The notes below the pieces were generated by a model. The model was given only the letters and a program-made list of their open reading frames with translations, was not told where the DNA came from and ran no database searches. Positions 46,463 through 49,211 of a stretch of DNA of 56,605 nt are shown piece by piece. The stretch is from the NCBI GenBank assembly GCA_947476295.1, contig CANJQC010000016.1:1-56605 (forward strand). The letters are read 5' to 3'. How positions within the stretch are numbered: the stretch's first letter is position 1; each line of letters opens with the position of its first letter. A program made the position numbers and the translations under genes. The stretch comes from Planctomycetaceae bacterium (lineage in GTDB: Bacteria; Planctomycetota; Planctomycetia; Planctomycetales; Planctomycetaceae).

Positions 46463-46779
46463 AGGAACGATTCCCGTTCTCCGCAAAGGCCGCCAAAGTA
46501 CTCTGCGATGTCATGTTCGTCGGATCTTGTATCTGCCATTGACAGTTGCAGTATCCGCAGCTTTTCATAAGTTGAGCCCAACTGCAAGAGGATGAGTGAC
46601 ATTTGCGACATTTGCTGCCATATTTGTTCTGGCTGGACGTTAAACGTATCTGCACCTGATGACGGGATAATCACGATACGGCAGCACTCCATCGTGGAGC
46701 CGGTGTCGGGAGATGCCTACAATCCTGCGTTGGCGTGAAGGTTAAACACTACTCAATTCAATTTGCCAGCCAGGCAACC
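46463..46779. other. divergent intergenic region
   Basis: This is the shared upstream region of the FHA-panB and LipB-LipA-TsaB operons. I see no gene or clear repeat in it. Confidence 0.4.
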
Positions 46780-47544
46780 ATGACCATCGACTGGGACGCT
46801 TTCACCAACGATACGCTCACGAATGCCGAAGTGCGATTGCTCGGCGCGGTGGAGCTGTCGTCCGTCTTGGCTCTGCAGAAACTCATGGTGCATGAGGTGC
46901 GATCTCAAAGCCGCACGAATGCCGCGATCCTGATCTGCGAACATCCGCCAACAGTCACTGTCGGGTCGGGTGCCAGTTTGCTGGAACTTCCGGAATCCCC
47001 ACGGGAGCTGGAATCTCGACTGATCACCGTCCATAAAGTCCGGCGCGATGGCCATGCCATTCTTCATCAGCTTGGCCAGATCGCAGCGTATGTCGTCGTG
47101 TCGCTTCCGGAATGCAGTATGGACGAATCCGAATTTCGCGCATGTCTGCAGCAGGCGGTGATTGAGACCTGTCGAGAAGTCCAGGTTGTCGCTTCAACTT
47201 CACCCGACGATCCTACTGCCGTCTTCGGACGACATGGCGTAGTTGCCGAACTGGGAATTCATATCGATGAAGGCATTACCAGCTTCGGAGTTTTTCTGAA
47301 CGTGAGCTGCCGTCTGGACGAACCTCGCGAAATAGGACGCGGACTACTAGGCCAGCGCGTGTCATCTCTTAATGCCGAACGAGTCCGGCCGACACAGATG
47401 CCGCAGGTTCGATCGGCTTTGATTCAGCACTTGTGTACACAACTGGGCTATCCTGACTATCATCTGCACACCGGTCATCCTTTTCTGAAACGAACTCGGA
47501 CCCTGATCCATGACAAGTTTGCCGATCCTCAATCAGCCGACTAA
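46780..47544 (+). CDS. LipB-like protein lacking catalytic Lys and Cys
   Basis: The 254-residue protein has the octanoyltransferase/BPL-LplA fold: ILICEHPPTVTVGSG, VRRDGHAILHQLGQIAAYVV (RGGxxTxHGPGQ motif in altered form, His96 kept) and GITSFGVFLNVSCRLD. The catalytic Lys, in RKIAAIG in active LipB, corresponds to Val154 in HGVVAELG, and the nucleophile Cys of VPCGI corresponds to Arg187 in EIGRGLLG. Both catalytic residues are therefore missing. ATG 46780 is chosen; the frame extends to 46735. It overlaps lipA by 35 bp, so coupling is likely. It may be a scaffold, or use other residues. Confidence 0.85.
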   Translation: MTIDWDAFTNDTLTNAEVRLLGAVELSSVLALQKLMVHEVRSQSRTNAAILICEHPPTVTVGSGASLLELPESPRELESRLITVHKVRRDGHAILHQLGQIAAYVVVSLPECSMDESEFRACLQQAVIETCREVQVVASTSPDDPTAVFGRHGVVAELGIHIDEGITSFGVFLNVSCRLDEPREIGRGLLGQRVSSLNAERVRPTQMPQVRSALIQHLCTQLGYPDYHLHTGHPFLKRTRTLIHDKFADPQSAD

Positions 47545-48496
47545 TGACACGACGCTGCATGCTGCAACTTTGCACATTGCGCCACTGAACATCGTGCCGC
47601 TCAACGCGATGCTTCGGACCGACGCGCCTCAACGCCGCCTGCCGCGATGGCTCAAGCGTCCATTGCCTCAGCCTGGCATGGCTTACACCAGTGACGTGAT
47701 TTCTGACCTGCGTCTGGAAACCGTCTGCGAAAGTGCCAAGTGCCCAAATCGCACGGAATGCTGGTCGCAGAAAACAGCCACATTCATGATCGGCGGTAAC
47801 GTCTGCACGCGCCCTTGTGGATTCTGTTCCGTGCCGAAAGGCAAGACCGAACGCCTGGAAATCGACGAACCGGAACGTGTCGCTGAAGCTGCCATGCGTC
47901 TGGGCCTGAAGTACGTAGTACTCACATCTGTCACCCGCGATGACCTTCCGGATGGCGGTGCTGATCACTGGTATCGCACGGTGCTGGCCGTCCGTGAACT
48001 CACGGGGTCGCAGGTGGAAGTCCTGACCCCCGACTTTCTGGGAAATCGCAAAGCCATCAGCCGTGTGATTGAATCGCGTCCGGACGTCTTCAATCACAAC
48101 ACGGAAACCGTGCCTCGCCTGTATCATCGCGTGCGCCGCAATGCCGACTATCAGCGCACGCTCAACCTGTTGAAACAGATCAAAGACGAAGCGCCTGACA
48201 TGCCAACCAAGAGCGGCCTTATGCTGGGACTTGGCGAGACACGCGAAGAACTGCTCGACGTCTTTGCCGACCTGCGGGGCGTGGGGTGTGACATGCTGAC
48301 ACTGGGACAGTATCTGCAGCCCACTCCCGATCACCTGCCGGTGGAACGATATGTTCCACCGGAAGAATTCGATGAAATCGGCGAACTGGCCCGCAAACTC
48401 GGCTTCAGCATGGTGGCGAGCGGTCCGTTCGTCCGCAGCAGTTATCATGCTGGCGAAATGGCAGAAGAAATGGAACACGCAACTCGACGGGCATGA
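47510..48496 (+). CDS. lipA: lipoyl synthase
   Basis: The 328-residue radical SAM enzyme inserts two sulfurs into octanoyl chains on lipoyl domains. The auxiliary cluster Cys are in CESAKCPNRTEC, the SAM cluster is CTRPCGFC, and the C-terminal RSSYHA Ser is present, so it looks active. The start is uncertain: ATG 47510 adds a low-complexity segment (HAATLHIAPLNIVPLN) that overlaps the LipB-like gene, while ATG 47609 gives the usual length (295). The last codons and TGA (CGACGGGCATGA) lie in a GGACATGAATGTCC-type repeat. tsaB follows after 25 bp. Confidence 0.96.
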   Translation: MTSLPILNQPTNDTTLHAATLHIAPLNIVPLNAMLRTDAPQRRLPRWLKRPLPQPGMAYTSDVISDLRLETVCESAKCPNRTECWSQKTATFMIGGNVCTRPCGFCSVPKGKTERLEIDEPERVAEAAMRLGLKYVVLTSVTRDDLPDGGADHWYRTVLAVRELTGSQVEVLTPDFLGNRKAISRVIESRPDVFNHNTETVPRLYHRVRRNADYQRTLNLLKQIKDEAPDMPTKSGLMLGLGETREELLDVFADLRGVGCDMLTLGQYLQPTPDHLPVERYVPPEEFDEIGELARKLGFSMVASGPFVRSSYHAGEMAEEMEHATRRA

Positions 48497-48510
48497 ATGT
48501 CCATCCCGCA
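48486..48510. repeat. GGACATTC(A/T)TGTCC-type palindrome, copy 5
   Basis: CGACGGGCATGAATGTCCATCC carries the core with one change. It contains the lipA stop codon. Confidence 0.55.
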
Positions 48511-48521
48511 AGTGACGCCGT

Positions 48522-49211
48522 GTGAGGTTTGAAGAAATGCTGCTCGCCGTAGACACATCCGGAATGCAGGGCTCCATCGCCATTTTTGATGGCTCAGTTC
48601 TGGTGTTCGAACGCATCCTGGGCACGTTCGGAACCCGACATGCGCAGACATTGCCTGCCGAAGTTGCTGATGCGCTGGCAAACTGCCATCTGCAGCCCAG
48701 TGATATTCGATCTGTTGCCGTGAGTATCGGCCCGGGGAGTTTCACCGGACTGCGCGTTGGACTGACGTTTGCCAAAACCTTCGCATGGCTGAATGACGCA
48801 AAATTGGTGGCCGTTGATACGCTGCGTGCGATCGCTCAGCAAGTACCGCCAGATATCGAATTCGTAACGGCGATTGTCGATGCGCAGCGGGCTGAGTTCT
48901 TTGCCGCGACGTATCGCTGGAACACAGAACTCGGGCTTCGCTTTGCCATCGATGAGGTGCATCTGGCGAGTGCCGATGACCTGCCGACGGAATATCCGAT
49001 CGTCGGGCCAGCCGGCAACAAACTTAAAGCTGCGGCAGCCGACCGATTTGATGTGCTTGACGAATCCCTGTGGCAACCACACGCCACCAGCGTCGGACGC
49101 ATCGGGCTGCACATGCTTGATGAGCAGCAGTTCTCAGATCCCGACAGCCTGGAACCTGTCTACATCCGATTAAGCTACGCAGAAGAAAAACGCCGCGATT
49201 CAAACAGTTGA
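48522..49211 (+). CDS. tsaB: tRNA threonylcarbamoyladenosine protein TsaB
   Basis: This 229-residue ASKHA-fold protein partners TsaD and TsaE in making t6A37 on tRNA. It has the TsaB blocks LLAVDTSGMQGSIAIFDG, RHAQTLPAEVADAL, VAVSIGPGSFTGLRVGLTF and FVTAIVDAQRAEFFAA. GTG 48522 is the longest start and ATG 48537 (MLLAVDTSG) is an alternative that fits the family better. It follows lipA, probably as part of one transcript. The length is typical. Confidence 0.94.
   Translation: MRFEEMLLAVDTSGMQGSIAIFDGSVLVFERILGTFGTRHAQTLPAEVADALANCHLQPSDIRSVAVSIGPGSFTGLRVGLTFAKTFAWLNDAKLVAVDTLRAIAQQVPPDIEFVTAIVDAQRAEFFAATYRWNTELGLRFAIDEVHLASADDLPTEYPIVGPAGNKLKAAAADRFDVLDESLWQPHATSVGRIGLHMLDEQQFSDPDSLEPVYIRLSYAEEKRRDSNS

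Follow-up and report, generated by a model that had tools for sequence, protein, structure and literature searches.

A lipB-like gene overlaps lipA

The window analysed here, a stretch of 56,605 nucleotides from a Planctomycetaceae bacterium (contig CANJQC010000016.1, assembly GCA_947476295.1), carries a lipB-like gene whose 3' end overlaps lipA (Table 1). Read from its methionine codon, the gene encodes 254 residues; a GTG at 46735 is a possible upstream start and would give 269 aa. The product matches the Pfam family PF21948 (LplA-B_cat) with 61.8 bits (cut-off 27) and scores 64.8 bits against the NCBIfam lipB model TIGR00214, under the cut-off of 83.55. No further Pfam domain was found above cut-off and hence no DNA-binding domain. 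An AlphaFold2 model built from 32 sequences including the query (pLDDT 89.5, pTM 0.86) retrieved the LipB structures 2qhs (TM 0.91) and 1w66 (TM 0.84), both by target length, as top solved structures in Foldseek. An earlier note on this DNA had recognised the fold blocks of LipB. Profile and predicted structure agree with it, and the protein has the fold of the LplA/LipB catalytic domain.

The lipA gene is intact. Inspection by eye of its translation reveals CX4CX5C, CX3CX2C and RSSY, which we take to be the lipoyl synthase motifs. The overlap of 35 bp, already described in the earlier note, suggests translational coupling of the two genes. A scan for Shine-Dalgarno patterns gave fewer matches than shuffled sequences did and was not used. 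An open frame of 468 aa lies antisense to lipA (47369-48775, minus strand); it is probably a side effect of coding on the opposite strand. By Pfam, the neighbours between 43395 and 50753 include a citrate-synthase-family protein, panB and an FHA-domain gene; a gene matching PF00814 (TsaB-like by size) and a PQQ-repeat protein follow 3' of lipA.

Table 1. Features of the lipB-like/lipA locus in window coordinates.
Feature	Position	Strand	Basis
lipB-like pseudo-octanoyltransferase gene, 254 aa	46780..47544	+	Open reading frame; Pfam PF21948; LipB fold by AlphaFold2/Foldseek
Cys53, typical of the dyad-less clade; at the place of M. tuberculosis LipB Leu47 / E. coli LplA Trp37, probable acyl pocket	46936..46938	+	102/110 dyad-less vs 5/35 canonical
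Arg89-Asp-Gly91, RGG substrate loop (RDG here)	47044..47052	+	Arg in 110/110, Gly91 equivalent in 109/110
His96, counterpart of M. tuberculosis LipB His83	47065..47067	+	Kept in 106/110 dyad-less in-class homologues
Val154 replacing the catalytic Lys	47239..47241	+	phmmer, MAFFT, residue inventory
Arg187 replacing the catalytic Cys	47338..47340	+	phmmer, residue inventory
C-terminal H-x-x-T-G-H-P-x-L-x-R-T-R block	47461..47499	+	Strict pattern in 75/110 dyad-less vs 0/35 canonical
lipA, lipoyl synthase, intact	47510..48496	+	TIGR00510, 362.6 bits (cut-off 310.25)
35-bp overlap of the lipB-like gene and lipA	47510..47544	+	lipA start at 47510; lipB-like stop ends at 47544

The catalytic lysine and cysteine of LipB are replaced

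Positions 96, 154 and 187 of the LipB-like protein are His, Val and Arg. In a phmmer alignment with M. tuberculosis LipB (1w66), Val154 falls on the catalytic Lys and Arg187 on the catalytic Cys; with MAFFT the Cys column held Gly188 or a gap, never Cys. Lysines occur at 34, 86, 237 and 246 and cysteines at 53, 112, 122, 131, 177 and 219, which leaves no neighbouring Lys/Cys pair that a shifted alignment could bring to the canonical site. The two replacements named in the earlier note are thereby borne out: the full inventory rules out a misalignment that hides the pair, and no other segment supplies it. An alternative Cys close to the Lys site, found within GV[FW]C-RxG in many relatives, is not conserved and is Gly in the query clade. 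Nor is there an active site of the LipL type, judged by what we take to be the positions of its Cys and Lys: residues 132-176 and the LipB site of the protein contain neither amino acid.

Other hallmarks of LipB are in place. The RGG loop and the pocket His and Gln are represented by Arg89, Gly91, His96 and Gln100, and His96, also picked out in the earlier note, corresponds to M. tuberculosis LipB His83. As both the catalytic Lys and the catalytic Cys of the PCG motif are missing, the protein is very probably devoid of LipB-type catalysis.

Dyad loss appears to run through the class, probably Planctomycetia

A comparison across planctomycetes, as the earlier note had proposed, found the loss to be common to the class. 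Among 112 in-class homologues examined, 110 lack the Lys/Cys pair (two of these keep the Lys only) and two have both residues, as against 39 of 39 homologues with both residues from other classes of the phylum; same-genus rows in these counts are not independent, and one of the 112, L045, is gapped where the Cys should align. Within the GTDB family, a relative was found in 102 of 120 genomes. None of the 70 examined (the window's own, 29 further top-scoring and 40 hand-picked of the 102) has both residues: the Lys position holds Gln in 48, Val in eight, Leu in seven, Lys in two and others in five, and the Cys column never holds the catalytic Cys. Across the class, 122 of 158 genomes gave a LipB-family match, 80 of them outside the family. 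Half of these 80 were hand-picked across genera; 38 of the 40 lack both residues and two (L265 and L274) have both. Two further in-class proteins from the phylum-wide search, near-copies of two of the 40, also miss both. In the phylum, 204 of 244 genomes gave a match, and the 39 other-class proteins were drawn from 187 matching other-class genomes (13 best-scoring and 26 hand-picked). As far as examined, dyad loss appears to follow the class. Its recurrence in relatives from many genomes excludes chance and an assembly error as its cause.

A scan of titled genomes found dyad-less relatives on contigs labelled Planctomycetaceae, Fuerstiella, Schlesneria, Planctomicrobium, Thalassoglobus, Alienimonas, Pirellulaceae, Isosphaeraceae and Gemmata; on the strength of these labels the class is taken to be Planctomycetia. 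Neither residue was present at 76 of its 80 loci (L197 and L242 are gapped or cut there), two loci had the Lys only and two had both (L246, titled Thermoflavifilum, and L247, titled Deltaproteobacteria). Because the scan pattern demanded Cys53, these 80 loci were left out of the residue counts.

Outside the family, seven of the 38 dyad-less in-class proteins show a Cys that precedes the canonical column by one and could be the old catalytic Cys under a different gap placement. All seven lack the Lys in its column, which leaves the dyad broken in them as well. Six of them read alike (CDGDP or CNGDP: L249, L253, L256, L261, L271 and L285) and perhaps represent a half-lost dyad. The Lys of these six has become Arg in five and Leu in one, and Gemmata sp. 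IIL30 (L239) reads alike. In the family, a Cys at most five columns before the canonical column occurs in 4 of 70 proteins.

A single dyad-less clade under purifying selection

We built a quick maximum-likelihood tree of 102 sequences, in which SH-aLRT was the only support measure, 47 of the 99 inner branches are open and the two reference rows serving as outgroup did not fall on one side. All 65 dyad-less proteins on it group in a single clade (SH-aLRT 100, branch 0.75) with one change of state, which corresponds to one ancestral loss and a derivation of these LipB proteins of the class from one lineage. The two in-class canonical proteins fall outside this clade, one beside T. thermophilus LipB (SH-aLRT 97), and may have been acquired by transfer. 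The query subclade sits on a further long branch (0.83, support 100).

In two unsaturated same-genus pairs, dN/dS of the lipB-like gene was 0.13 (dS 0.81) and 0.04 (dS 0.27), and that of lipA in the same pairs 0.04 and 0.03. The other eight pairs (dS >1) gave 0.09 to 0.15 for the lipB-like gene. These ratios indicate that the gene is under purifying selection. Together with the class-wide conservation and the single clade, they rule out a local mutation or a pseudogene.

At 99 of 108 loci (64 of 70 in the family and 35 of 38 elsewhere in the class), a co-oriented lipA frame lies directly 3' of the lipB-like gene; four of the remaining six family loci have no lipA in the stretch examined and two have it further away. 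Along with purifying selection, this supports the view of the earlier note that the gene is retained in the lipoate operon. Canonical lipB can also adjoin lipA, which lies directly 3' in 8 of 33 other-class loci and at neither of the two in-class canonical ones. All these distances were taken between stop-to-stop frames, and an overlap is claimed for the window alone. Clustering of open reading frames around 72 loci found no neighbour in more than 15 loci besides the lipB-like (56) and lipA (49) clusters. With nothing else widely common to these loci, a functional hint from conserved neighbour genes was dropped.

Residue columns were compared between the 110 dyad-less proteins and 35 canonical ones (33 of the 39 from other classes and the two in-class ones). 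In M. tuberculosis numbering, the dyad-less proteins keep Arg76 (110), Gly78 (109), Gln87 (109), the Asn of FLN (107), His83 (106) and His49 (105), all of which are present in the 35 canonical proteins. At the Thr81 equivalent, at least 101 of the 110 have a hydrophobic residue; His157 is retained by 59 of them and replaced by Phe in the query. The equivalent of Leu47 is Cys in 102 of 110 dyad-less proteins (Cys53 in the window) versus 5 of 35 canonical ones, and Cys53 is the sole Cys kept in at least 80% of the 70 family proteins. Leu47 corresponds to Trp37 of LplA, one of the residues around the lipoyl moiety (PMC9307952), so Cys53 probably lies in the acyl pocket. By its strict pattern, the C-terminal THP...R block was found in 75 of 110 dyad-less proteins (60 of 70 in the family) and in none of the 35 canonical ones; the pattern was sought in matches cut 25 residues past the profile match, and a remote block in canonical proteins could escape it. 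Selection, the single clade and these conserved residues of its own make a new role for the protein likely, one of the two possibilities raised in the earlier note.

A LipM-type protein as candidate octanoyltransferase

The other possibility was that lipoate is made with another transferase, and for this a candidate is present. A PF21948 search of the window's genome gave one further match besides the window gene: L001, which lies on another contig (G000:C181). L001 is a single-domain protein of 254 aa with the motifs GGGAILH, CF and KIVGSAQ, which we take to be of LipM type, and its His, Cys and Lys are intact. Its Pfam content is PF21948 and PF03099 only; its NCBIfam matches are LplA-type models far under their cut-offs and its PDB matches are LplA proteins. 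For PF10437, the LplA C-terminal domain, nothing was found above cut-off in this genome (best E 0.125), the model passing its cut-off in 4 of 14 control genomes. The one PF03099 match besides L001, on C72, is taken for a putative biotin ligase. Apart from that match, these searches gave no second canonical LipB and no LplA over the cut-off in the genome. The LipM label of L001 is a prediction from its motif, the missing C-terminal ligase domain and the genomic pattern. We infer that L001 is probably the enzyme doing octanoyl transfer in this genome.

His, Cys and Lys are intact in all 21 LipM-type proteins examined in the family (from the window's own genome and 20 others, five of them without a LipB-like match), and each of 28 other in-class genomes that lack canonical LipB encodes such a protein with the three residues. 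Among the other-class genomes with canonical LipB, 14 of 15 gave no LipM match and the remaining one a weak match (E 9e-7). The two in-class genomes with canonical LipB gave only matches of 55-56 bits in which the Lys is kept and the His and Cys are not. The 45 genomes in this second test were hand-picked (20 with a dyad-less LipB-like protein, eight with no LipB match, two in-class canonical and 15 other-class canonical). Dyad loss thus seems to go with LipM presence, a correlation that consists mainly of one ancient split and two in-class outliers. LipB and LipM are reported to co-occur only seldom (PMC10332631). A survey of six planctomycetes from 2014 recorded LipA in five, LplA genes often closer to LipM in five and LipB in one, LipB never together with LipA, and proposed a LipM-then-LipA route without LipL (PMC3917532).

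The two in-class genomes with canonical LipB (G376 and G398) encode an LplA-like protein with MTGGGAMF and GKIGGAAQ (L336 and L337) and have no LipM. Many family genomes encode a further PF21948 protein (L073-L097, E 1e-32 to 1e-40), none of which was returned by the motif search.

Lipoyl acceptors in the window's genome comprise two GcvH-type matches, six biotin/lipoyl-domain matches, which need not all be lipoylated, and three E2 genes. The GcvH-type matches lie at G000:C91:16157-16516 and G000:C18:17431-17742 (L130 and L131; E 5e-39, strong, and E 4e-20, more distant). A LipL-like third protein was not found in this genome by PF21948 and PF03099 profile searches.

Some genomes of the class lack the lipB-like gene

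Six family genomes with lipA have no LipB-like gene in the lipA stretch and a single PF21948 match each, which is LipM-type in the two examined (G068 and G103). A seventh family genome, G108, has neither a LipB-like gene nor a lipA match, perhaps owing to an assembly gap. In eight other in-class genomes without any LipB match, LipM is present. E2 proteins of 2-oxoacid dehydrogenases were found in all 12 genomes searched (one to four each), and the ten of these genomes that lack the LipB-like gene show that it is not needed for all lipoylation. The protein may help, regulate or be replaced. On whether the gene is essential in Planctopirus limnophila, the words lipB, lipoyl and octanoyl do not occur in the main text of PMC10632474 or of PMC12991369, nor do lipoate and lipoic in that of PMC10632474.

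A possible partner in lipoate assembly

We speculate, at about even chances, that the protein is a pseudoenzyme of LipB descent, retained for a partner role in lipoate assembly. The sequences show that one LipB lineage of the class lost the Lys/Cys dyad, that a LipM-type protein with intact Cys and Lys is encoded instead, and that selection has preserved the LipB body beside lipA with most of its substrate-pocket residues. LipM would have taken over catalysis by transferring octanoate from ACP onto lipoyl proteins. The LipB-like protein would no longer transfer octanoate. It might instead bind octanoyl donors or octanoylated lipoyl domains and help to present these to LipA, or to LipM. Such a role would probably lie at the lipA step. 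A precedent for binding is E. coli LipB K135A/C169A, which is inactive, yet binds octanoyl-ACP (KD 36.4 µM) and octanoyl-CoA (PMC9307952). The same two positions are lost in both proteins, but the E. coli protein is a laboratory mutant with its other LipB residues intact, whereas the window protein belongs to a natural family.

Several observations weigh against a partner role. The E. coli double mutant lost a contact to the CoA 3'-phosphate that is ascribed to Lys135 (PMC9307952). Ligand binding may be changed by the hydrophobic replacement of Thr81, and the query subclade is altered further, with Phe for His157 and its long branch. Six family genomes with lipA and eight other in-class genomes with LipM manage without the gene, and E2 proteins were found in each of the ten tested genomes that lack it. 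The link between dyad loss and LipM goes back mainly to the one ancient split and the two outliers.

It is unlikely that the protein is still an acyl-transfer enzyme by other chemistry, using a thiol at Cys53 or a transfer without covalent intermediate, a version of which could act as a relay factor in the LipL/LIPT1 role and move octanoyl or lipoyl from GcvH to E2. Cys53 sits at the Trp37 place of LplA beside the lipoyl moiety, presumably the tail end of the pocket and not the carbonyl end. Moreover, the Lys is kept in 2 of 110 proteins only, and the E2 proteins of the ten genomes without the LipB-like protein speak against such a transfer as well. What keeps other chemistry under consideration is the retention of Cys53 as the only widely kept Cys, enriched in the dyad-less proteins, and the missing LipL-like third protein. 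Furthermore, the active-site Cys has moved before, those of LipB and LipM lying on different loops (PMC7253636), and not all bacteria with LipM and LipA have LipL, and an unknown amidotransferase may exist (PMC10332631).

Somewhat less probable still is that the LipB-like proteins of the class are the missing lipoyl/octanoyl relay factor of LipM organisms without LipL, with a remodelled pocket containing Cys53 and the arm passed between lipoyl proteins or to LipA. If true, the mechanism would be new to this family, in which octanoyltransferases work with a Cys/Lys pair. The idea of an obligate LipL substitute is weakened by the same ten genomes, all of which have E2 proteins.

We see only a slender chance that the protein is mainly a regulator or sensor that binds octanoyl-ACP or octanoyl-CoA to tune LipA, or that its frame serves chiefly to couple lipA translation. 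The 35-bp overlap and the closeness of a lipA frame at 99 of 108 loci would fit either role, and binding of octanoyl-ACP by a dead E. coli LipB (PMC9307952) would fit a sensor. However, a regulator would have to work without any other Pfam domain above cut-off, a DNA-binding one included, and a mere coupler would need neither conserved pocket residues nor a C-terminal block. A decaying LipB relic, redundant beside LipM, is hardly credible: the gene is missing from some genomes and the query subclade sits on a long branch, but the frames are open and under purifying selection within genera, a LipB-family match occurs in 122 of 158 in-class genomes (two examined ones canonical) and the clade has conserved residues of its own.

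Relation to known systems

The window protein has in common with LipB (E. coli; M. tuberculosis, 1w66; T. thermophilus, 2qhs) the fold, the RGG loop, the HxPGQ block and the EHP block. It differs from LipB by the missing catalytic Lys and Cys, the Cys at the Leu47 equivalent, the lost Thr81 equivalent and the added C-terminal THP...R block. L001, as a LipM of the same superfamily encoded on another contig, keeps its Cys (on another loop), Lys and His. The relay amidotransferases LipL and LIPT1 use the same scaffold (PMC7253636), and their role is possibly vacant in these genomes, where the LipB-like protein has no counterpart of the LipL Cys and Lys and no LipL-like sequence was found in the window's genome.

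The genes of the LipM-then-LipA route, LipA and LipM-like, are the same in the planctomycetes studied here, but a dead LipB is not described in the available parts of PMC3917532. A literature search, mostly not of full texts, found no description of a class-wide dead LipB beside lipA. The occurrence of LipM with LipA in the phylum was therefore anticipated by PMC3917532, and a conserved dead LipB beside lipA, a natural and class-wide LipB pseudoenzyme, is what is added here. If the protein is indeed a pseudoenzyme partner in lipoate assembly, an entire class has retained, within its lipoate operon, an inactive version of an enzyme of central metabolism, which would suggest a second, non-catalytic function of LipB-type proteins. 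This would also offer an entry to the published open question of how LipM organisms without LipL lipoylate other proteins (PMC10332631, PMC3917532).

The NCBI LipB model TIGR00214 is blind to the dead site: five of eight hand-picked relatives scored above its cut-off and would be named octanoyltransferase, a warning for annotation.
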